In this document: one piece after another, positions 3,955 through 36,688 of the stretch
Layout: each line of letters begins with the position of its first letter
Position numbering within the stretch: the stretch's first letter is position 1
Assembly (NCBI RefSeq): GCF_000015865.1
Contig: NC_009012.1
Location: forward strand, 2,039,081 to 2,103,080
Length of the DNA stretch: 64,000 nucleotides
Reading direction: 5' to 3'
Origin: Acetivibrio thermocellus ATCC 27405
GTDB lineage: Bacteria > Bacillota > Clostridia > Acetivibrionales > Acetivibrionaceae
Made by a program: the position numbers and the translations under genes
Notes under the pieces: model-generated
Database searches by the model: none
What the model was told of the DNA's origin: nothing
What the model saw: the letters and a program-made list of their open reading frames with translations, nothing else

Positions 3955-6504
3955 CTAATCAAGAAAACTTCTCATTCCTCTTTTTTCATAGACACTTTCT
4001 TTATTTTCATGTCTTATGGATCTATCAAGTGCCATAATAAGTGCTACAGCACCATCTATCTTTTCAGTAGACTTTTCTTTATCAGGCTTTATATTGCCTG
4101 CAGGATCAGTTTTTACATAAATATTATCCATCATCCACCTTAAAACAGGATGTCCTCCATGGGCTATTTTCTTTTCAAGAGTAATTTTCATAAGCTCCTT
4201 TGTAGGAGGAGACATATCCTTATACCCCTGCCCAAAAGGTACAACTGTAAAACCCATTCCCTCCAGGTTCTGTACCATCTGCACAGCACCCCATCTGTCA
4301 AAGGCAATTTCTTTTATGTTGTATTTTTTCCCAAGCTCTTCAATAAAGGTTTCTATATAGCCATAATGAACTACATTTCCTTCAGTAGTTTTTAAGTATC
4401 CCTGCTTTTTCCAAATATCATAAGGTACATGATCTCGTCTTACTCTTAAATTTAAATTATCCTCTGGTATCCAAAAGTGAGGAAGAACAATATATTTTTC
4501 ATCTGATGTTCTTGGAGGAAATACTAAAACAAAGGCTGTGATATCTGTGGTACTTGAAAGGTCAAGTCCCCCATAACACTCTCTTCCTTTTAAACTATCT
4601 ATATCAACTTTAAAAGCACACTCATCCCACTTGTCCATCTGCATCCATCTTGTGGACTGCTTCACCCATTGATTTAATCTAAGCTGACGGAATATATTTT
4701 CTTCAGCAGGATTTTCTTTTGCACTGTTAAAGGCATTTCTCACTTTTTCTATATCTATGGTATGCCCAAGAGAAGGGTTTGCTTTATACCAGTTTTTCTC
4801 TAATGTCCAATCGTCATTGTCATCTATTCCATAAATAACAGGATAAAATGTTGGATCGATTTTTCTTCCTTCTAATATATCTACTGCCTTTTGATGTACT
4901 TCATAGCATATAGAATTTCTATCTGTTCCGGCTGTGGTTATAAGAAAAAACAGCGGCTGCAATCTTGCATCACCACTTCCTTTAGTCATAACATCATATA
5001 AATCCCTGTTAGGCTGAGCATGAAGTTCATCCATTACAACTCCATGAACATTAAGTCCATGTTTTGAATAAGCTTCAGCAGATAATACCTGATAAAAGCT
5101 GTTTGTAGGCTTATATATCAATCTTTTTACAGAAAGAACAGGTTTAATTCTTTTCTTAAGAGCAGGACACTGTTCTACCATTTCAACAGCTACATCAAAA
5201 ACGATAGAAGCCTGTTGTCTGTCTGCAGCACAGCCGTAAACTTCAGCTCCCCATTCTCCATCTCCGCAGGTCATATAAAGAGCAACTGCAGCAGCAAGCT
5301 CGCTATTATGTGTAGGAATCATGGATTTACCTGCTAAATATAATCTTGATGGGCTGTCAACCTGAATACATCTCATTTTTGTCTTTCCTGTTTTTTCAAT
5401 AGACTTTATATAATGAAAATGTGATCTTGTTTTAATATTTCTTTCTCTGCCTCTTTTAAGCTTTCTATCTAATCCTGATACTTCTAAGTCATTAAAAGCA
5501 GTAAACTTTATTAAATAACATATTTCACCTGTTTCAATTCCATATCTAGCTGATGGAGCTGTTTTTAACGTATTCTTTATTCCCAATGACCATAATAAAT
5601 CCTGAACATCCTTGGCAAGTTCAAAAAGAATTGTCACATATATTGCCTGGCTTTTAGCAGTGCTTACACATCCATCAGAATCTATTAACCCTTGTAATAA
5701 TCTTTTTCTTTGCTGAGCTGATGCTCTTAAATATTCAATAGGTATCCTTTTTTCCCTAAAGTTTTTAACTAATATACTTTTAAGTTCTTTATATACTAAA
5801 ATATCGCTGTTACCCTCCTGCTTATATCTATTATGAAGTTTATATGGTATATTTTTAATAACTTCGTCAACATCATCTCTCATTACAGTTATTTCAGGCT
5901 TTACAGCATTACCATTTCCTATCCAGTACCCAAATAGATACGGATCTATAGGAAGTTTATTTTCAGGCAAAATAAAAGCATCCGCTATTGGGATGCGAAA
6001 TAATGCTCTATTTTCTTTACTTTTAGTTTTAAACTGCTTTTGATACATTTCTCCTGTTGTTAATAGTTTTTCTCTTCTGCCATTATTAGTAACTTGAACC
6101 TTCCATAGATGCCTTTCTCCAGCTACTATACTTGTTCCATCTCTAAAATTTATTTTATATGCCTGCTCCGTATCATCAATTTCACTTATTGCAACAACAT
6201 TACAAGGTCTTCCCTTTTCATCAATTACCTTATCTCCTGCTTTTATTTCCCCCATTGTAGTCCATCCATCAGGTGTTGGAATCGGAGTATCAAGGGCTAA
6301 CTGTTTTCCATTTTTCTTAGGAATTTCAACATAAGCAGTATTATACTGCCTGTATCCATTTTCTTTTACTGTTCCGAATATATCCCTTATAATTTTATCC
6401 TGCCAAGGCAGAAGATCAAAAGGAACACCACGCCACTGACCCTTTGTATGCTTTAAGCAGTTAATAAAGTTTACGGCATGCTGTGCTTTTGCTTCATCAT
6501 ACAC
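3955..6504 (-). CDS. terL: Phage terminase large subunit precursor, interrupted by an intein
   Basis: An 849-residue precursor; removing the 333-residue intein (5305-6303) leaves a 516-residue packaging motor. The ATPase P-loop reads PKKNGK before the intein and SELAAA after it, so the intein splits the Walker A between Lys and Ser. The extein continues with GVVMDELHA (Walker B with catalytic Glu) and the nuclease-domain motif YGGLDLSSTTDITAF. The protein should cut and pump phage DNA using the small subunit and portal. The chosen GTG at 6504 is eight bases after AAAGGAGG inside terS; an ATG at 6555 lacks such a site. The intein must splice for ATPase function. Confidence 0.9.
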   Translation of the reverse strand: MYDEAKAQHAVNFINCLKHTKGQWRGVPFDLLPWQDKIIRDIFGTVKENGYRQYNTAYVEIPKKNGKQLALDTPIPTPDGWTTMGEIKAGDKVIDEKGRPCNVVAISEIDDTEQAYKINFRDGTSIVAGERHLWKVQVTNNGRREKLLTTGEMYQKQFKTKSKENRALFRIPIADAFILPENKLPIDPYLFGYWIGNGNAVKPEITVMRDDVDEVIKNIPYKLHNRYKQEGNSDILVYKELKSILVKNFREKRIPIEYLRASAQQRKRLLQGLIDSDGCVSTAKSQAIYVTILFELAKDVQDLLWSLGIKNTLKTAPSARYGIETGEICYLIKFTAFNDLEVSGLDRKLKRGRERNIKTRSHFHYIKSIEKTGKTKMRCIQVDSPSRLYLAGKSMIPTHNSELAAAVALYMTCGDGEWGAEVYGCAADRQQASIVFDVAVEMVEQCPALKKRIKPVLSVKRLIYKPTNSFYQVLSAEAYSKHGLNVHGVVMDELHAQPNRDLYDVMTKGSGDARLQPLFFLITTAGTDRNSICYEVHQKAVDILEGRKIDPTFYPVIYGIDDNDDWTLEKNWYKANPSLGHTIDIEKVRNAFNSAKENPAEENIFRQLRLNQWVKQSTRWMQMDKWDECAFKVDIDSLKGRECYGGLDLSSTTDITAFVLVFPPRTSDEKYIVLPHFWIPEDNLNLRVRRDHVPYDIWKKQGYLKTTEGNVVHYGYIETFIEELGKKYNIKEIAFDRWGAVQMVQNLEGMGFTVVPFGQGYKDMSPPTKELMKITLEKKIAHGGHPVLRWMMDNIYVKTDPAGNIKPDKEKSTEKIDGAVALIMALDRSIRHENKESVYEKRGMRSFLD
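5305..6303 (-). mobile_element. Class 3-type intein with LAGLIDADG endonuclease domain
   Basis: A 333-residue intein, Gln1 to Asn333, followed by Ser+1. It begins QLALDTPIPTPDGW, without the usual Cys1/Ser1 nucleophile. Block B has His65 with Trp67 two residues on; block F has Cys312 (MRCIQVDS); the end is PTHN with Thr331, His332 and Asn333. This Trp-Cys-Thr set is the signature of class 3 inteins, in which the block F Cys starts splicing. A two-motif homing endonuclease lies between: FGYWIGNG (residues ~125-131) and LLQGLIDSDG (~203-211). The first motif carries Asn where Asp is expected. Boundaries come from the intact P-loop regained on removal. Confidence 0.92.
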
Positions 6505-6979
6505 TCTTACTGCCTCCTTTATAAAGTATAAGTTCCATTGGATCTTCTTCATCATTTATATTGTCAGTGACTATTCTGCTTCTTGCTGATGGAGTAAGTC
6601 CAAACTGTTCGCAGAATCTGTTCATGATTTTAAGGTAGGTTTGAGCGATAGATACCTGTGGCACCTGCTGCCAGTATCCCGATGGTGTTTTTACAATAGT
6701 TCCATGTTTAGTTATAAATTCTTCTGCTTCCTTCCACCTTGCATAGGCTTGACAATATCCTGCAAAGGCTGCCATATCTATTTCTGTAAGTATTCCCATT
6801 GCCTCAAGCTGCTTTGACATTCTCCTCCACTCTTTTTTAGCTTCAGCATCAAGCCAGCCTGGACATTTAGGTGCTTTTTTCTCAGGTTTTGGTTCATCTT
6901 CATTAAGTGGTCTTTTCCCTGGATTTCCTTCAAGTATTTTTAATGCTGTTGGTTTTGGTTTTCTTCCCCTTTGAGCCAT
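6497..6979 (-). CDS. terS: Phage terminase small subunit, P27 family
   Basis: A 160-residue protein that recognises the packaging site and loads the large subunit. The N-terminus is the typical P27 opening RGRKPKPTALKILEGNPGKR with a proline/lysine-rich linker, followed by PGWLDAEAKKEWRRM and the helical DMAAFAGYCQAYARWKEAE. The ATG at 6979 follows GGAGG at good distance. Its last codons overlap the start of terL by eight bases, giving translational coupling. Confidence 0.9.
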   Translation of the reverse strand: MAQRGRKPKPTALKILEGNPGKRPLNEDEPKPEKKAPKCPGWLDAEAKKEWRRMSKQLEAMGILTEIDMAAFAGYCQAYARWKEAEEFITKHGTIVKTPSGYWQQVPQVSIAQTYLKIMNRFCEQFGLTPSARSRIVTDNINDEEDPMELILYKGGSKSV

Positions 6980-7037: not shown

Positions 7038-7253
7038 TTATTTTCTTTTTCCTTTTATACCCTTGTAGTTGTAATTCCCTTTCTTAACTTCTTCATATTC
7101 AGCTTCTACAGCTTCTTTATAATCACTACGTTTCCTTTCCTTTTCCTTGCAGCTTAAGCAAATGCAATCCTCATTATACATTGACATTATTCTACCCTCT
7201 TTTAAGCTTTCTCCACAGCGATCACAGGTTTTCTGAGTAAAAAATTTATCCAT
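7038..7253 (-). CDS. Small zinc-binding protein
   Basis: A 71-residue protein with two CxxC pairs (CDRCG near residue 10 and CLSCK near residue 32), which should bind one zinc, and a very basic tail. Its start overlaps the end of the amidoligase-like gene by eight bases, so the two are cotranslated. Small CxxC proteins of this sort are common in phage accessory regions. I do not recognise a specific family. Confidence 0.6.
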   Translation of the reverse strand: MDKFFTQKTCDRCGESLKEGRIMSMYNEDCICLSCKEKERKRSDYKEAVEAEYEEVKKGNYNYKGIKGKRK

Positions 7254-7998
7254 TTATTTCAGCACTTCCTTCCTGTTGTAATTTTCTAAAAGCACAACTG
7301 CCTTCAAGATTTGAAAGAAGTGTTTTCCTTATATCTTTATACCTACTTCCATTCATGCCAAGGCGAATGAGCCAAGTTCTGAATGCATATTTAGGGTTAT
7401 CCTCCTGAGCCTGCTTAAAAGAGGTGTGTTTTAATTTTTGTGCGTTCACATTTATTAAAGATGCAAGTTCTATAAATGCGGATATTTTTTCATGGCTTAA
7501 GGTTTCACCTAATAGCTTAAAGGTAAAAGTTCCTTTCTCAAAATCAAAGGATATGCCTTTGCAACCATCAGTTCCAACTTCAGTAATAGCATTTTGAAAT
7601 TCTTCTAAAGTTTCTGTTCTCTTTAAATTCAAATTCTTTATAAAGGTTTCCTCAATAAAAGGTTCTTTTAATTCGAAGGTTTTAACAATTAGCTGCTGTT
7701 TACTGTAAAGCATATTTAAAATATTTATTAGCGTTTTTCCCGTATGCTCTCCTAATGGAATTTCTAAATTAAAACTATCAATAGTTGTATCCTCTATTTT
7801 TTCTTCAGAATCCTCTCCCTTTAAAATTTCGTTAAGTGTAACAACCCTACCTTGCGAAGTTATAATGGTTCCCTGCCTATCTATTGTGTAGATTTCCTTT
7901 TCCGTTTTAATTTCATAGGCAAAGCTTGGTGCTCCAAGATACTTTGCTTGAGAACCTAAGGCTTCACTTAAAATTTTAACTATTTCTTTTCTATCCAT
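7246..7998 (-). CDS. Amidoligase-like paralogue lacking catalytic motifs
   Basis: A 250-residue protein of the kind often labelled virulence-related. It aligns by eye along its length with the amidoligase at 9118-10041: the C-terminal NPKYAFRTWLIRLGMNG matches NPKFAMRTWLNRIGFIG, and TLINILNMLYSKQQL matches SIRNFINIIYSRNDL. It lacks the N-terminal strand with the ExE pair and the HxH motif, so it is probably not catalytic. The ATG at 7998 is seven bases after GGGAGG, downstream of its own promoter. A partner or regulator of the active enzyme is a plausible role; this is inference. Confidence 0.65.
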   Translation of the reverse strand: MDRKEIVKILSEALGSQAKYLGAPSFAYEIKTEKEIYTIDRQGTIITSQGRVVTLNEILKGEDSEEKIEDTTIDSFNLEIPLGEHTGKTLINILNMLYSKQQLIVKTFELKEPFIEETFIKNLNLKRTETLEEFQNAITEVGTDGCKGISFDFEKGTFTFKLLGETLSHEKISAFIELASLINVNAQKLKHTSFKQAQEDNPKYAFRTWLIRLGMNGSRYKDIRKTLLSNLEGSCAFRKLQQEGSAEING

Positions 7999-8029
7999 CT
8001 TCATTCCTCCCTGTGTTTTGGTAGTTACA

Positions 8030-8058
8030 TATATCACTCTAAACACAGTTAATAGCAA
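8030..8058 (-). promoter_or_regulatory. Sigma-A promoter, copy 1 of three repeated promoters
   Basis: The -35 is TTGCTA (8053-8058), the spacer 17 bases, and the -10 GATATA (8030-8035). The spacer ends in GTTTAGAGT, shared with the promoters at 8457-8485 and 10082-10110. It drives the amidoligase-like paralogue, whose leader is about 25 bases. Confidence 0.65.
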
Positions 8059-8111
8059 GTACTTTGTATAAATATTTTAAGAAGAAAACAGGCCCTTCAG
8101 TCTGCTTCTGT

Positions 8112-8423
8112 CTAATTTTCAATCGCTGTGTACCTTGGGTAGGTGTAGCCTTCTGAATCTACTAAAATGCTTTTCTTTGTTTTTGTGTTCCTAACCCTTA
8201 TGCATCTTAGCTCTCCTTTTTCGTTGCAACCACCATCTTCTTTGGTTATCCAAGGCTGGTCTTTGCAGAAGTCTTTTGCAAATTCTTTAAATTCCTCATC
8301 TCTTAGTTCAATTTCTTTTGTAACTTCGTAGGCTGTTCCTTTTACTCCATCCTTCTTAGCTTCTTTTGTAAGTTCTTTAAGTTCCTTTAAATTTAAAACC
8401 TTTCTTCCAAATAATGCTATCAT
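8112..8423 (-). CDS. Conserved small protein of the amidoligase cassette, unknown function
   Basis: A 103-residue, highly charged soluble protein without signal peptide or membrane segment. GGAGG lies seven bases before the ATG. It has its own copy of the repeated promoter just upstream. I recall similar short proteins in clostridial mobile elements beside amidoligase genes but cannot name a function. The lysine/glutamate-rich first half suggests helices and the second half suggests beta hairpins (RCIRVRNTKTKKSILVDSEG). Confidence 0.6.
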   Translation of the reverse strand: MIALFGRKVLNLKELKELTKEAKKDGVKGTAYEVTKEIELRDEEFKEFAKDFCKDQPWITKEDGGCNEKGELRCIRVRNTKTKKSILVDSEGYTYPRYTAIEN

Positions 8424-8456
8424 TCTAAAACCTCCAAGTGTGTTTTTGTTATACTA

Positions 8457-8485
8457 TATATCACTCTAAAACACACATATATCAA
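8457..8485 (-). promoter_or_regulatory. Sigma-A promoter, copy 2 of three repeated promoters
   Basis: The -35 is TTGATA (8480-8485), the spacer 17 bases ending GTTTTAGAGT, and the -10 GATATA (8457-8462). It drives the 103-residue gene. The downstream leader shares the CAAAAACACA element with the promoter at 10082. Confidence 0.65.
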
Positions 8486-8493
8486 GCTAATTC

Positions 8494-8973
8494 TTAAAGT
8501 TTATATCTATTATTTTTGCTTATAGCTTCAGCACTTACTTTCAATGCTTCTTCAATAAAACCTATATCAAAACCTGAAGATGTATATCCTTCTTTAACTA
8601 TTCTTAGATACCTTTCACTTGGAAGGTTTAAGTTAATCCTATCTTTTATTTTATTGGTCATGATGTACACCATAGCAGTTACTATTTCTCCACTTTCAAG
8701 CTCCACCTCTAAATCTTTTTTATAATAAAAGTTTGGGAAACCTTCGTAAATGTCTAAAGCTTTCTCATCTTTAGGTTTAACCTCCCAAACAAGTACTGGT
8801 ACCTTTCCACCCTTAAAAGGTTCAATAGTAGCATAAGCATTATTAGGTACTCCTTTAAAAAGCAACCTAAAATCCTTTAACTCCCCCTTGCCATAAACCC
8901 TAGCCGTAGGACATCTTTTTTCCATCTGCTGAAGATTTAAGTTTGAACCATAAGCAATATACAATCTTTTCAT
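8494..8973 (-). CDS. Gamma-glutamylcyclotransferase (AIG2/GGCT-like)
   Basis: A 159-residue enzyme of the AIG2/GGCT fold, which releases gamma-glutamyl groups as 5-oxoproline. The substrate-binding signature YGSN is at residues 8-11 and the expected catalytic Glu is Glu77 in DIYEGFPNFYY. Length is typical. Its ATG overlaps the stop of a small upstream frame as ATGA. Iyer and co-workers noted that such cyclotransferases accompany glutamine-synthetase-fold amidoligases, which fits the gene at 9118. The natural substrate here is unknown. Confidence 0.85.
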   Translation of the reverse strand: MKRLYIAYGSNLNLQQMEKRCPTARVYGKGELKDFRLLFKGVPNNAYATIEPFKGGKVPVLVWEVKPKDEKALDIYEGFPNFYYKKDLEVELESGEIVTAMVYIMTNKIKDRINLNLPSERYLRIVKEGYTSSGFDIGFIEEALKVSAEAISKNNRYKL

Positions 8974-9101
8974 CTATCAATCCACCCTTTCTGAAAGCTT
9001 CTAATTGGGCCACAGTTCCCCTGTATTGCCTTAAGTTTAATTCCTAGCCCATTAGTTCCTTCTACTACCCTAAGGGCGGTAATTCCGCCCTGTGGCTTTA
9101 T
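8970..9101 (-). CDS. Small coupled open frame with no normal start codon
   Basis: An open frame of 43-47 codons between the amidoligase and the cyclotransferase. It reads like a real protein (GGITALRVVEGTNGLGIKLK and then GNCGPIRSFQKGWIDR) and its TGA overlaps the cyclotransferase ATG (ATGA). There is no ATG, GTG or TTG in the frame. An ATA at 9099-9101 sits eight bases after AGGCGG and could be a mutated ATG. It may be a decayed gene or use a rare start. Upstream it is closed by TAG at 9114-9116. Confidence 0.4.
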   Translation of the reverse strand: MKPQGGITALRVVEGTNGLGIKLKAIQGNCGPIRSFQKGWIDR

Positions 9102-9117
9102 GAAGCCAGCCGCCTAT

Positions 9118-10041
9118 CTATGCGGCTCTCTGAAATCTCCAAGCTGCTGAGCCTTGAAGGTGCTTTATAAGGTGTTCTCTGCAGTTTTTGAATTCTTCAC
9201 CTATAAAGCCTATTCTGTTAAGCCAGGTCCTCATTGCAAACTTTGGATTTTCAACCTGTGGCTTTTTACTGCTTGCACTCTTTTGAGTAAGGGCTTGATG
9301 GTTAAGTGCCAAGGCTAAAACTATATTTGACCTAATAACTCCTGCGTGCATGGTTCCATTAAAACCTCTAAGTTCAACTGTTCCTGTTCCGTTGAAAAAG
9401 CTGTGTAGGTTTAAGAAGTGGTATCTGCTTTCATGGTAATGCCTTTCTCTATTTGAACCGTATCCCTCGTACCAAATATCCTCAATCTGCTTCATGGTAG
9501 TAGGCTTTTTCTTGTTTATCCTTTCCACCAAATCTGCATCCATCTTTTTGCAGTATCTCATTCTTTCTCTCTCAATCTGAAGGCTTTCATAAAGCAGGTC
9601 ATTTCTTGAGTAGATTATGTTTATAAAGTTTCTAATACTTCTTGGTGTATGGTCAGCTCCATCAAGGTGTATGTGAATCCCTGTGCAGTTTTGCTTTTCT
9701 GAAAAGGCTCCTGCTTTTCTAAGCTTTCTTACTATCTCCTGCAAAGTTTCTATGTCTTCTTTGTAGGTAAGTATTGGACTTACTAGTTCTACACTATACT
9801 CTTTTGTAGCTGCTACCTTCTCGTCATTTACTTTCTTTTGGGTGTAAATACTTCCGTCATACATAAGCTTCCATACTCTTCCGTCTGCTGCTGTTACCTT
9901 ATAGGTATCATAATAATCATTTTCTCTTTTTATACTTCCTCTTAAAACTTCTGCAACAACCTTTGCGGCCTTGTTTCTTGTAACTCCTGTCATTTCAATT
10001 TCAATTCCAAATCTTGCTTTTAAAAAATCTGTGTTTTGCAT
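9118..10041 (-). CDS. Amidoligase, glutamine-synthetase fold
   Basis: A 307-residue enzyme of the phage/bacterial amidoligase family (COOH-NH2 ligases related to glutamine synthetase). Motifs: FGIEIEMTG with Glu14 and Glu16, VELVSP with Glu85, GIHIHLDGA with His123 and His125, and GTVELRGFNGT near residue 245, all expected to hold metal, ATP and substrate. Family members are predicted to make amide bonds on peptides or small amines. The ATG at 10041 follows a GGGG site and its own promoter. With the neighbouring cyclotransferase it could form an add/remove pair for glutamyl-type tags. Confidence 0.85.
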   Translation of the reverse strand: MQNTDFLKARFGIEIEMTGVTRNKAAKVVAEVLRGSIKRENDYYDTYKVTAADGRVWKLMYDGSIYTQKKVNDEKVAATKEYSVELVSPILTYKEDIETLQEIVRKLRKAGAFSEKQNCTGIHIHLDGADHTPRSIRNFINIIYSRNDLLYESLQIERERMRYCKKMDADLVERINKKKPTTMKQIEDIWYEGYGSNRERHYHESRYHFLNLHSFFNGTGTVELRGFNGTMHAGVIRSNIVLALALNHQALTQKSASSKKPQVENPKFAMRTWLNRIGFIGEEFKNCREHLIKHLQGSAAWRFQRAA

Positions 10042-10081
10042 TTTTGTTTCCCCTTTCTTAGTGTGTTTTTGGTCATGTACA

Positions 10082-10110
10082 TATATCACTCTAAAGGGGA
10101 GTAATAGCAA
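10082..10110 (-). promoter_or_regulatory. Sigma-A promoter, copy 3 of three repeated promoters
   Basis: The -35 is TTGCTA (10105-10110), the spacer 17 bases ending CTTTAGAGT, and the -10 GATATA (10082-10087). It drives the amidoligase. Sequence identity with the other two copies covers the spacer end and the -10, so a shared DNA-binding regulator is likely. Confidence 0.65.
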
Positions 10111-14515: not shown

Positions 14516-14548
14516 ATACTCTCTTTCTATCACATTTACTCTCATCTT
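14516..14548. repeat. 33-base direct repeat, copy 2
   Basis: Exact copy of 14247-14279, 269 bases away. It reaches the stop codon of the late regulator gene. Recombination between the copies would delete the zinc-finger gene. Confidence 0.8.
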
Positions 14549-14951
14549 ATGAAATATTTATTTCTTTTAAAGCTTTATCATGAATACGAAATATATGCTG
14601 TAAACTGTATCCCATATCAACAGCAATCTGTTCCCATGTCTTAAAACAGAGATATCTAAGTTCCAATAGAGTCTGATATTCTGTATTATCTATTTTTCTA
14701 ATAACTGAAACAAACTCCCTTTTTAAATCCACAAGAATATCAATATCTCTATTTATTTCATTTTCTAAATCAACTATCTTAGCTATTATATCCTCCATAG
14801 AATGCACATTACGAGTTCCACTAGGTGGTGTATCGCTTAAAGTAGATGTTGCCTTTGTAGCTAATGCCCTTAAGGAAATAATCTGCTCTAACTTACTATT
14901 AATTCTTTGGTCTATATGATAAGCCTGTGATAAATATTCTTTGGCTGTCAT
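14547..14951 (-). CDS. Phage late transcription regulator, DUF1492/ArpU-like
   Basis: A 134-residue, mostly helical protein. The N-terminal two thirds is a coiled coil; the C-terminus is a sigma-region-4-like helix-turn-helix (LLELRYLCFKTWEQIAVDMG, then HIFRIHDKALKEI). Such proteins switch on late genes in phages of Firmicutes. Its position, last of the early block and just before the HNH-terminase operon, fits. Its ATG is two bases after the stop of the next gene upstream. Confidence 0.75.
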   Translation of the reverse strand: MTAKEYLSQAYHIDQRINSKLEQIISLRALATKATSTLSDTPPSGTRNVHSMEDIIAKIVDLENEINRDIDILVDLKREFVSVIRKIDNTEYQTLLELRYLCFKTWEQIAVDMGYSLQHIFRIHDKALKEINIS

Positions 14952-27529: not shown

Positions 27530-27946
27530 CTAACTTTTAGTATTCAGTACCTCTATTATTTTATTTACGCAGCCATCCAAATCTTTGATAATCTGCTTAG
27601 ACCAGAACCTCAGTACAATCCATCCTTCTTCTTCAAGCTTCCTTGTTACTTCTAAATCTCTTTCCATATTTCTTTTTATCTTTTTATTCCAGTATTCTTT
27701 ATTTGTACCTGCAACATCTGTATTCTCCTTATAATTGTATCCATGCCAAAACTCTCCATCACAAAATACAGCAACTTTTTTAACCACAAATACAACATCA
27801 GGCTTTCCAATTAATTTCCTATAATTTTTTCTATAACGATAACCTCTGCTCCACAGTGCTTTTCTTAGAATACATTCACTCTTACTGTCTTTATTTTTTA
27901 TTGCTCTCATATTTTTTCTTCTTTGTTCTGGAGTTAAATTATCCAC
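27530..27946 (-). CDS. vsr: Very short patch repair endonuclease
   Basis: A 138-residue Vsr nuclease, which nicks T:G mismatches formed when 5-methylcytosine deaminates. Family motifs: RRKNMRAIKNKDSKSE at the start, GKPDVVF with the catalytic Asp, VAVFCDGEFWHG, then EEEGWIVLRFW. The GTG at 27946 is eight bases after GAGG. It accompanies the m5C methyltransferase at 30150, as usual for Vsr genes. Confidence 0.9.
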   Translation of the reverse strand: MDNLTPEQRRKNMRAIKNKDSKSECILRKALWSRGYRYRKNYRKLIGKPDVVFVVKKVAVFCDGEFWHGYNYKENTDVAGTNKEYWNKKIKRNMERDLEVTRKLEEEGWIVLRFWSKQIIKDLDGCVNKIIEVLNTKS

Positions 27947-28050
27947 TATTTTCACCTCAAATTTATTAGATAAAAACTGACTTGTTTAATTAATGCTAAT
28001 TTTAATTTACCATTTTTTGTACACTATGCTTACATTTAAATCTATTCTGC

Positions 28051-28079
28051 TTGTACTAATACCATTTTTTTAATATAAT
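28051..28079 (+). promoter_or_regulatory. Sigma-A promoter of the opposite-strand gene
   Basis: TTGTAC (28051-28056), 17-base spacer, TATAAT (28074-28079). It gives a leader of about 25 bases before GTG 28112. Confidence 0.7.
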
Positions 28080-28111
28080 GTATTATATGAGTAATAAAGG
28101 GGTTGATGCTA

Positions 28112-28513
28112 GTGGCCATTGCTGGAAACAGTTATACAATACAATTAAAGCCTTCTCATCTTGGTTGGGGAGATTATCGGTATACAAATACGAGAGATAT
28201 TATCTACGGAGAAGGATATATTCCTTTACCCAAACCATATGCTAAAGCATTTAATATATTTAACTCGAATTATTCTGCTACAGGCCTGGGATATAATTTA
28301 TTTCGTGCTTCATCTGTTGATGGTTTTTTAAATAACGTAACGCTTCTGGCCCAAGGTTCTTCAACTGCTGGAGATATATATGCTAAACAATTTTCTGTAC
28401 ATGGTAATCTTAAGATGATTGGGGCATGGTATGCGAGTCAAAATGCAACAACTAACAATTTAGTAAGAGTTACTTGGACATCCCCAACAGATATTCTTCT
28501 TGAAATAATTTAA
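28112..28513 (+). CDS. Opposite-strand protein in the restriction island, unknown
   Basis: A 133-residue protein, the only convincing plus-strand gene of the prophage. GTG 28112 is nine bases after AAGGGG. The sequence is rich in aromatic and beta-prone segments (YGEGYIPLPKPYAKAFNIF, GNLKMIGAWYAS, VRVTWTSPTDILLEI). It recalls beta-barrel modules attached to restriction enzymes (B3-like DNA-binding domains), but that is a weak impression. It has its own promoter and a shared terminator, so it is an independent cargo gene between vsr and the nuclease. Confidence 0.6.
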   Translation: MAIAGNSYTIQLKPSHLGWGDYRYTNTRDIIYGEGYIPLPKPYAKAFNIFNSNYSATGLGYNLFRASSVDGFLNNVTLLAQGSSTAGDIYAKQFSVHGNLKMIGAWYASQNATTNNLVRVTWTSPTDILLEII

Positions 28514-28517
28514 TTTA

Positions 28518-28556
28518 AAATCCACTTTGATAAATTATCTGTCAAAGTGGATTTTT
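28518..28556. terminator. Bidirectional terminator
   Basis: Stem AATCCACTTTGA / TCAAAGTGGATT with flanking A and T runs on both sides. It can stop the plus-strand gene at 28112 and the minus-strand nuclease gene at 28584. Confidence 0.85.
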
Positions 28557-28583
28557 GCTTTTGTTCATATTCTTATAATTCGG

Positions 28584-30137
28584 TTATAAATCAGATAACA
28601 ATATCTGCCTATTAACAGAAAATATATCTCTAATGTTTTTATGTGTATAATGCTTGGACTCGTATGATTCAACAAGTTTAATCATATTAGATACACTCAT
28701 TGCTGAACCAGAAACACCAGTAGCATTAACAATATCTATAATTTGAGAATTAATGTTCTTTCCAAAGCCACCTGCAATATATGAAAAAAAGGCAAGCGGA
28801 TCACTAGAATTACTATAACGATTTAAATTTCCTATATAATTGTGAACCATTCTATTATGATGGTCATTGCTAATTGTATATTTACTGTATGCCTTATTAT
28901 CTATAATAGCCTGATATCCATCTTTATCAGATAAAATTAAAACATCAGGCGTAAGGCCTATAGGTCCTACATGTTTTGCTTCAAAACCAAAAACATTTTG
29001 AAATAATTGCACAGTTGCTTTTTCAAAGTCTGAAGCCTCATCTCTCCCTTTAAAAGCCATTTCAAAGTACTCTGTCATAAATGCACCAACAGACCCTCTT
29101 GGATACAGTTTCAAAAGGGTTTCTTCTACCAGCTTGTCCTCAAAACCTGTCTGCTCAGAAATTTTATCTATAAGATCTGTCGTTATTTTGGTTATCGGCT
29201 GTTTTAAAGATTCAACAATATATGCTTTTTTAATCTTCTGTTCAGCAATAATTTTAGCTGTAATAGTCTTAGTTTCTGTAAGATTTCTAGTATCTTTCTT
29301 GTGCTTAGGGTCAAGGCCGTATTTTCTTTGAAAATATTCATGTTGTTCAGGTCGATCAATAAAAGGCGGTGAAACAGATAAAATCTGCTGAACTTCTAAT
29401 CGTTTATCTTCAAGAATACGTACTTCACCATTATCTCTTTTTACAAGCTGTGTATATTCTAACCAGTTTACAATAGTATTTGCTAAATCCATTAAATGCC
29501 TATATGGATGTTCAAGATTGATATCACCTTTTGAAGATTTATATTTATCAAAAAAATCTTCTTCATGAATCATATCGCCGCTTTGTCTGAATTCTAAAAT
29601 TTTACCTACAATATATCTATAACATTTATCTGTTTCATTTTCTGCCTTCGTAACTATAATTTTTGCAATTTCCTCTTCTGTCAAATATTCTATCTCTGGA
29701 TCATTTAATAGTCTCAATAAAAATCTAAATGGTCTGATTTTAAATCTTGGGGCGACTTGAACTCCTCTGCTCAATGAAAAAGAAGATGGAAACTGATATT
29801 TTAAAATTTGGTTTTTCAAAACTTCAACAGGAGAGTCACCTGCCATTATGGCTTCACCTGCTAATGTTAACTTTATCTTTCCTGTTGATTCCTGTGTGAA
29901 TATCAACCCTAAGCTTGTAAGCCATGCCTTATATGTTCGTGCTCCTCCGCCTGTCTGATCTCTGCGTTCCCCTTTACGCTTTAAACCTGCCTGCTCTAAG
30001 GCATCTTCAAAAGATAAATGAGACTCTCTCTGTCCCTGCCATTCTTGATCTAATGATAATTCAGCAAATGCTGATAATACTTCAGGAACAGAATTTAATT
30101 TTCGCTTTGGTCTTGTTACCCACCAGTAATTTAACAA
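28584..30137 (-). CDS. Type II restriction endonuclease, FokI/AlwI-like nuclease domain
   Basis: A 517-residue protein. The N-terminal ~250 residues look like winged-helix DNA-recognition modules (QTGGGARTYKAWLTSLGLIF). The C-terminus has a PD-(D/E)XK core like the FokI cleavage domain: TPDVLILSDKDGYQAIIDNK with Asp and the DxK pair, followed by a helix with HHNRMVHNYI. It starts at TTG, eight bases after AGGGGG, 13 bases from the methyltransferase stop. The recognition site cannot be read from sequence. Confidence 0.75.
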   Translation of the reverse strand: MLNYWWVTRPKRKLNSVPEVLSAFAELSLDQEWQGQRESHLSFEDALEQAGLKRKGERRDQTGGGARTYKAWLTSLGLIFTQESTGKIKLTLAGEAIMAGDSPVEVLKNQILKYQFPSSFSLSRGVQVAPRFKIRPFRFLLRLLNDPEIEYLTEEEIAKIIVTKAENETDKCYRYIVGKILEFRQSGDMIHEEDFFDKYKSSKGDINLEHPYRHLMDLANTIVNWLEYTQLVKRDNGEVRILEDKRLEVQQILSVSPPFIDRPEQHEYFQRKYGLDPKHKKDTRNLTETKTITAKIIAEQKIKKAYIVESLKQPITKITTDLIDKISEQTGFEDKLVEETLLKLYPRGSVGAFMTEYFEMAFKGRDEASDFEKATVQLFQNVFGFEAKHVGPIGLTPDVLILSDKDGYQAIIDNKAYSKYTISNDHHNRMVHNYIGNLNRYSNSSDPLAFFSYIAGGFGKNINSQIIDIVNATGVSGSAMSVSNMIKLVESYESKHYTHKNIRDIFSVNRQILLSDL

Positions 30138-30149
30138 ACCTGCTACCCC

Positions 30150-31202
30150 CTATTCATTAACATTACATGGAACATTTTCATATTCAATACCTGCAAATGT
30201 TCTTAATACAGCTTCAAATATTATCTTTGCTCCTTTAGCTGGGACTGCCATCCCTATCTGCCTTCTTACACTTTCCTTTGAACCCTTAAATAAATAATCA
30301 TCTGGAAATGTCTGCAGTCTTGCTCTTTCCCTATTAGTTAATGCTCTTGGCTCAGCATAATGATATATATGAGTTCCACCGCCGCCTGAACCTGTTACTG
30401 TATAGGCTGGTCTATTAGGATCTAATCTTTTATATATTTGACTTATCTTTGCCCCTTTAACATTCAATCGAAGATGCTCAGGTAAATCTGCCGTGAAAGC
30501 ATTTTCTCCAGGTCTTATATATTTTAATCTCTCTGTTACTATTGCTGATTGTCTTGTCAATTCATTATTCGGTGCATCTTTCGGAATTGGTGGTACTTCT
30601 AATGCTGTTCTACAGGTATTATCTAAGTCTTTATACGGAACCGGAGAAGGAACTTTAAATTCATACGGTAAATCTTTTCTAATACCTATAATAATTATTC
30701 TATGACGTGCCTGCGGTATACCATATTCTTCAAACTTATATAAATGAGGATATAATCTATATCCAGCCTCTCCTAAATCATTAAGTATCTTTTTAAACGC
30801 TCCACCATCATTTGCCGACTTTAAACCGCCTACATTTTCAGCAAGAAACCACATTGGTTTGAACTTTTTCAATACTTTTACCCCATAAGTGTACAATGGT
30901 CCATATTCTCCATTAAATCCTTTTTGTTCGCCTACAACCGAAAAGTCATTGCATGGAAAACCAAATGCAAGGGCATCTATGGGTTGCAAAGAATCTATGT
31001 TCAACTTCCTTACATCCTGACATATAACCGATTCAGGATTATCCGGACATATATTGTGTATGTAAGTATCACAAGTATCTCTGTCATAGTCATTTGCCCA
31101 TTTATGAATTATTCTATATTCCTTATTTTCTATTTCTGCTGTTTTTGCTCCATAAGCCAGCCCTCCAGGACCACAAAACAGTTCTCCTAATTCAAATTTC
31201 AT
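30150..31202 (-). CDS. DNA (cytosine-5) methyltransferase of the restriction system
   Basis: A 350-residue m5C methyltransferase. Motif I is ELFCGPGGLAYG, motif IV GFPCND with the catalytic Cys, motif VI AENVGG, motif VIII QARHRIIIIG, and the C-terminal motifs ARLQTFPDDY and QIGMAVPAKGA. It is unlike the phage m5C enzyme at 10141, so the two have separate origins. It should protect the host from the nuclease at 28584; the linked Vsr repairs its deamination products. Confidence 0.92.
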   Translation of the reverse strand: MKFELGELFCGPGGLAYGAKTAEIENKEYRIIHKWANDYDRDTCDTYIHNICPDNPESVICQDVRKLNIDSLQPIDALAFGFPCNDFSVVGEQKGFNGEYGPLYTYGVKVLKKFKPMWFLAENVGGLKSANDGGAFKKILNDLGEAGYRLYPHLYKFEEYGIPQARHRIIIIGIRKDLPYEFKVPSPVPYKDLDNTCRTALEVPPIPKDAPNNELTRQSAIVTERLKYIRPGENAFTADLPEHLRLNVKGAKISQIYKRLDPNRPAYTVTGSGGGGTHIYHYAEPRALTNRERARLQTFPDDYLFKGSKESVRRQIGMAVPAKGAKIIFEAVLRTFAGIEYENVPCNVNE

Positions 31203-36439: not shown

Positions 36440-36501
36440 GCTGTTCGTTGCAGTTACGCAAATCATACACCTCCCCTATCGCTCGTAGAGTTTCCGGTGT
36501 T

Positions 36502-36665
36502 GTCTGCAGGCAGGTCTTCTGACTTAGGTTCATCAACTCTTCATGCCTTCCCAGTCTCCCAGTGGCAATAATCTGAAGAGTCTCCCCATCACAGCGGCGG
36601 GACCGTGCAGGAATCTCACCTGCTTCCCTTTTAATCGGCATAAAAATATGCACGAACCTGCAAAC
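36502..36665 (-). promoter_or_regulatory. Cobalamin riboswitch
   Basis: The closing stem is GTTTGCAGG (36657-36665) with CCTGCAGAC (36502-36510). Between them, on the minus strand, are the conserved AAAGGGAAGCAGGTG, GGTCCCGCCGCTGTGA, the GCCACTGGGAGACTGGGAAGG block, and AGTCAGAAGACCTGCC, the hallmarks of the B12 aptamer. It senses adenosylcobalamin or related forms and controls btuFCD through the terminator at 36396. Confidence 0.95.
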
Positions 36666-36688
36666 CACTATATTCAATTTTCTAAAAT

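Follow-up and report, generated by a model that had tools for sequence, protein, structure and literature searches.

A promoter-like module with a spacer complementary to the Shine-Dalgarno region recurs before accessory genes of Bacillota phages

In the leaders of the phage T4 genes e, soc, 49, I-TevI and segB, and of mobE from phage Aeh1, read-through transcripts hide the Shine-Dalgarno sequence (SD) in a helix, and a promoter of the gene's own, located in or just past the 5′ strand of that helix, provides a transcript that escapes (PMC3014915, PMC2988022). These T4-type leaders use the TATAAATA late promoter and the phage sigma factor gp55, and they are found gene by gene in one phage group. 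In Tn10/IS10 and in IS200 an RNA structure that covers the SD, and that the gene's own transcript cannot form, protects a mobile gene against transcription entering from outside; such protection from external promoters was reportedly described for Tn10/IS10 by Davis et al. in 1985 and for IS200 by Beuzon et al. in 1999. The start-associated sequences of cluster K mycobacteriophages are a short repeated motif adjoining the SD of many genes, for which, to our knowledge, no -35/-10-like layout has been described.

The locus described here lies in a stretch of 64,000 nucleotides of the Acetivibrio thermocellus ATCC 27405 chromosome, analysed as a whole (the window), and we consider it probable that each of its three sites is a portable promoter-leader module in which the promoter spacer doubles as an SD-hiding hairpin arm. 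It would resemble the T4-type leaders in keeping the SD hidden in read-through RNA and free in the gene's own transcript, and both arrangements serve accessory genes inside other operons. Unlike them, it joins a -35 to AGAGTGAT in a two-part module whose layout hardly varies and which is found before many unrelated genes in Bacillota phages. Read-through shielding would also be shared with Tn10/IS10 and IS200, and the module likewise precedes serine recombinase genes; however, the IS10 arm derives from the end of the element, whereas here the spacer of the promoter supplies the arm, and phage accessory genes are also among those behind the module. The start-associated sequences are alike as a repeated pre-gene motif near the SD but differ in sequence and host phylum. 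The phage cassette of amidoligase and gamma-glutamyl cyclotransferase genes (PF12224, PF06094) is the cargo behind the window copies and not the regulatory module itself, whose relatives carry other cargo (Nmad4, DUF7698, DUF7678, recombinases). A literature search for the motif letters returned nothing related, as judged by title and abstract, and the module was not found in Rfam, so a near-uniform module of such design before many unrelated accessory genes of Bacillota phages appears to be new as far as these searches reach.

The preliminary description of this DNA had reported three near-identical sites composed of TTGMTA, a spacer of exactly 17 nt and GATATA, with common elements at the spacer end and downstream, each ahead of one gene of the cassette. 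All of this was reproduced at the positions given there, with the three copies on the minus strand (Table 1). The 14-mer TTTAGAGTGATATA is common to the three copies and has no mismatch-free match elsewhere in the window or in the whole 3.84 Mb genome, a AAAACACA-type stretch lies downstream in each, and each copy stands 26-40 nt ahead of the start codon of a cassette gene. Across the genome, the pattern TTGMTA-N17-GATATA with TTTAGAGT has exactly three occurrences, all of them in the window. When up to three mismatches were allowed in the two-box pattern, 13 matches were obtained versus 2 for a reversed control; the three exact ones were the window copies and the next best had two mismatches. 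A weight matrix built from 220 relatives gave the three copies 46-60 bits, while none of 30 random windows scored above -7. The earlier placement of the sites inside the late operon had to be abandoned: two DNA methyltransferase genes lie on one side of the cassette and the terminase genes on the other, which places it outside the morphogenesis operon.

Table 1. Module copies, predicted hairpin arms and associated genes (positions within the window)
Feature	Position	Strand	Basis
Module copy 1: -35 TTGCTA 10110-10105, spacer 17 nt 10104-10088, -10 GATATA 10087-10082	10082..10110	-	pattern + matrix
Copy 1, 5′ hairpin arm TCCCCTTT, within promoter spacer	10093..10100	-	folding + family test
Copy 1, 3′ hairpin arm AAAGGGGA, = SD of amidoligase gene	10049..10056	-	folding
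Amidoligase gene (PF12224) downstream of copy 1	9118..10041	-	
Module copy 2: -35 TTGATA 8485-8480, spacer 8479-8463, -10 GATATA 8462-8457	8457..8485	-	pattern + matrix
Copy 2, 5′ arm GTGTGTTTT	8468..8476	-	sequence; perfect 9-bp run
Copy 2, 3′ arm AAAACACAC, immediately ahead of SD; SD itself barely affected	8438..8446	-	folding
DUF6329-like gene downstream of copy 2	8112..8423	-	
Module copy 3: -35 TTGCTA 8058-8053, spacer 8052-8036, -10 GATATA 8035-8030	8030..8058	-	pattern + matrix
Copy 3, 5′ arm CTGTGTTT	8041..8048	-	folding
Copy 3, 3′ arm AAACACAG, extends into SD GGGAGG	8011..8018	-	folding
Amidoligase C-terminus-like gene (phrog_2443) downstream of copy 3	7246..7998	-	
Gamma-glutamyl cyclotransferase gene (PF06094), cassette member without own module	8494..8973	-	
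DUF1492 protein, Sigma70_r4-like end, candidate late activator of window phage	14547-14951	-	

Searched for in related prophages, the motif proved to be part of a large family spread over Bacillota phages and prophages, and it recurs in hundreds of bacterial viruses. Its consensus is AAWTNAC-TTGCTATT-N6-CTTTAGAGTGATNNATR...ACCAAAA...SD-ATG; 220 non-redundant copies gave AAWTNAC-TTGCTATT-N6-CTTTA-GAGTGATATATGTA..ACCAAAA, in which the boxes belonged to the selection and the AAWTNAC block and ACCAAAA did not. With the -10 left free, the core took the form AGAGTGATNNAT or, one base shorter, AGAGCGAATAT and AGAGCGTTAAT. The same block stands upstream of nearly all amidoligase relatives that were fetched by protein alone. 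Viral and GTDB contigs were scanned by exact match, and among the matches listed a -35-like hexamer was found at its fixed place in 105 of 119 GTDB contig matches; exact matches in six non-Bacillota genomes (L330, L335, L342, L354, L361, L374) were without a -35 and were taken as chance. Carriers include Streptococcus Javan105, Erysipelothrix phi1605 and several Ca. Heliusvirales, and the order DNA methyltransferase genes, module, terminase genes was the same as in the window in all three phage records examined. Ca. Heliusviridae/Heliusvirales are defined by shared capsid, portal, Clp protease, terminase, DNA polymerase I, helicase and nuclease genes (PMC9226167); the window phage carries capsid, portal, Clp protease, helicase and nuclease genes, together with a polymerase-like gene that has no Pfam match. 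The cargo downstream of the module comprises amidoligases, the amidoligase C-terminus-like family, Nmad4, DUF7698, DUF7678, DUF6329, serine recombinases and many small proteins of no known function.

The upstream hexamer sits exactly 12 nt ahead of AGAGTG. In a set of 204 copies chosen by AGAGTGATATATGTAYR alone, with the upstream sequence ignored, TTGCTA was matched at five or six of its six positions at precisely this distance in 174, and several of the remaining copies had TTGACT, TTGACA or TGGACT at the identical position. A larger set contained TTGCTA 268 times, its alternatives TTGATA and TGGATA 49 and 14 times, and TTGACT 67 times, the last count being partly selected for. Both the rigid spacing and the replacement by sigma-A-like hexamers indicate a -35 box. 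Compared with a sigma-A -35 (near TTGACA, at 16-18 nt), the hexamer mostly agrees at 4-5 of six positions at its fixed place (TTGACT at five); compared with a sigma-A -10 (near TATAAT, with A at 2 and T at 6), GATATA at 17 nt agrees at three of six. Given this poor -10 match, and since a standard sigma-70 scan called none of the three window sites, we do not class the module as an ordinary sigma-A promoter. The conservation of AGAGTGAT goes far beyond what a sigma-A -10 would need, and this, together with the sigma-70 scan miss, makes it possible that one putative regulator reads the spacer/-10 element, as the preliminary description had suggested.

A feature absent from that description is a hairpin between the spacer and the SD. 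The spacer is variable and unconserved in the family and is complementary to the SD region of the same gene. Native spacer-SD partners paired better than swapped ones (p=8e-10 for 217 copies; p=6e-16 for 298 copies), a comparison from which shared base composition is not fully removed; they also paired better than shuffled spacers (p=9e-19), a test that does remove the composition effect and in which the region upstream of the -35, taken as a control, gave no signal (p=0.95). Perfect complementary runs of at least 8 made up 13.8% of native pairs versus 1.9% of swapped ones, and the 3′ arm in strong cases typically lies ~5-18 nt before the start codon. The hairpin also accounts for the CAAAACACA element shared by the copies at 8485 and 8058, as there it is the 3′ arm. 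These pairings bear on a reading in which the sites are promoter and operator only, with a phage activator, repressor or sigma-like factor (e.g., DUF1492/Sigma70_r4) reading AGAGTGAT and the SD complementarity being incidental. The core that is more conserved than a sigma-A -10, the sites missed by the sigma-70 scan, and the DUF1492 protein encoded by the window phage are all in keeping with it, but the specificity of the complementarity for native pairs makes it rather unlikely. DUF1492 is a candidate, but as a universal regulator it was set aside: it was found in 15 of the 25 records carrying fetched loci, a sample that includes fragments and some chance loci.

Both arms change together among close relatives. 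In L021 CTCGTTTAG goes with CTAAACGAG and in L310 CTTGTTTAG with CTAAACAAG, while in L015 and others CTCGTTTAG faces CTAAATGAG, a G-U intermediate. In a second amidoligase cassette of the same genome (L088), TCCCCTCAAA is located upstream and TTTGAGGGGA over the SD of an amidoligase C-terminus-like gene. Conservation of the module, its fixed spacing, the spacer-SD complementarity and the covariation were all obtained by computation. RNAalifold on MAFFT alignments of the leaders returned no consensus stem, because the 3′ arm shifts relative to the conserved blocks, and the native-versus-swapped and shuffle tests were used instead. A second hairpin, GTACATACC/SD, gave a weaker signal (p=1e-4, native versus swapped) in some copies only and was not adopted.

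A long, strongly conserved core, a covarying stem on or adjoining the SD, and a position in the operon shortly after the upstream gene would also suit a cis-acting RNA (riboswitch, protein-binding leader or thermosensor) whose transcription always comes from upstream, and in which TTGCTAT, AGAGTGAT and ACCAAAA would be the conserved RNA parts and the arm the expression platform. We regard this as unlikely. The Rfam 15 covariance models matched nothing between 7200 and 10400, at either the gathering or a permissive threshold (E<=5), RNAalifold gave no convincing sign of additional pairing within the conserved blocks, and the upstream block is a -35-like hexamer that keeps rigid spacing and alternates with TTGACT/TTGACA/TGGATA. 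Very unlikely, in our judgement, is a role as boundary or linker sequence for the exchange of accessory genes by homologous recombination. Modules do border small genes that can be exchanged, a phage often having several of them, and in L019 (~4940-5000) the likeness to other leaders starts within the module, whereas the sequence ahead of it is unrelated and lacks a -35, owing either to recombination at this point or to a join made in assembly; nevertheless, a linker would have no need to keep promoter spacing or covarying arms fitted to the SD of each gene.

To return to the promoter-leader module, the gene upstream of it is co-directional in 294 of 344 cases, and the -35 follows its stop codon at a median distance of 38 nt, which leads one to expect read-through RNA. 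As the 5′ arm has the -35 box on one side and the -10 box on the other, a transcript started anywhere after the -10 would lack it. Folding of the window sequences, in which the own transcript was RNA begun after the -10, predicted an unpaired probability for the SD of the amidoligase gene of 0.07 in read-through RNA vs 0.76 in the own transcript, and of 0.25 vs 0.77 for the gene at 7998. For the gene at 8423 the values were 0.59 and 0.66; the SD-covering helix is weak there, and the 9-bp stem of the copy at 8485 brings little predicted occlusion. Over 298 copies the mean was 0.47 in read-through RNA, 0.69 in the own transcript and 0.54 with a shuffled spacer, and for the family as a whole the spacer-SD pairing (p=6e-16 vs swapped) speaks for an SD-covering helix in read-through RNA.

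In the mechanism we propose, the -35 (TTGCTA/TTGATA; TTGACT in relatives) and the core AGAGTGATNNAT would start a short transcript just ahead of the SD, with the spacer between them serving as the 5′ hairpin arm and the SD region as the 3′ arm. RNA reading through from upstream genes would hold both arms and hide the SD, while RNA initiated at the module would lack the 5′ arm, expose the SD and allow translation, so that each accessory gene would follow the schedule of its own promoter, independently of the host operon. Promoter activity and the translational block are what we infer, as is the form of RNA polymerase or regulator used. The model is weakened by the poor sigma-A match of the -10, by SD hiding not being predicted for every copy and by the conserved ACCAAAA stretch, which falls outside it. 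The earlier idea that the cassette is transcribed apart from its neighbours gains from the fixed -35 position before the same and other genes in hundreds of phages, and the SD-pairing arm further argues that read-through mRNA is meant to stay untranslated. That this transcription may take place in the lysogen, as was also suggested there, is a hypothesis. A bolder and distinctly more tentative proposal is a new promoter class of Bacillota mobile elements, in which a dedicated phage or host factor would read AGAGTGATNNAT and a spacer co-evolved with the SD would make the module a standard plug-in unit insulating accessory genes. If true, the module would account for the way in which accessory genes within the lytic operons of temperate phages, in gut Clostridia and other Bacillota, can follow a timing of their own, and the textbook mechanism of T4 and IS10 would widen from isolated cases to a widespread standard part. 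Its sequence would also serve as a signature by which such genes (amidoligases, DNA-modification-associated domains, small unknowns, recombinases) can be found, and the module is a ready test case for mapping start sites and identifying the factor that reads the core.

Several further observations were made in passing. Another prophage of the same genome carries a variant (TTGACT, GATGTA) at G000:C1:2024736-2024766 on the minus strand (L447, near 6067), between a lysis amidase gene and a large serine recombinase gene, with 9-bp arms CTTCTATCA/TGATAGAAG that reach the SD of the recombinase. Three near-identical GAGTGATGAATG variants in repeated gene blocks (G000:C1:2364591, 3366745, 3387064; L445, L446) precede a 100-aa ribbon-helix-helix-like protein adjoining a transposase that is IS110-like by eye. 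The leaders of L207, L306 and L433-L435 contain another hairpin further downstream (e.g., TGCAAG/CTTGCA, CTACGG/CCGTAG), which would persist in the module's own transcript. In the window, the large terminase reading frame (3955-6555) appears, from its translation read by eye, to contain an intein, and the terminase of Erysipelothrix phage phi1605 is annotated as intein-containing. Outside the prophage, a cobalamin riboswitch (RF00174, 116.9 bits; 36492-36676, minus strand) lies upstream of an apparent B12-type ABC transporter operon. The window positions 27530-31202 (minus strand), judged by eye, are probably a restriction-modification locus, as they encode a Vsr-like endonuclease and a cytosine methyltransferase along with a large unknown protein.
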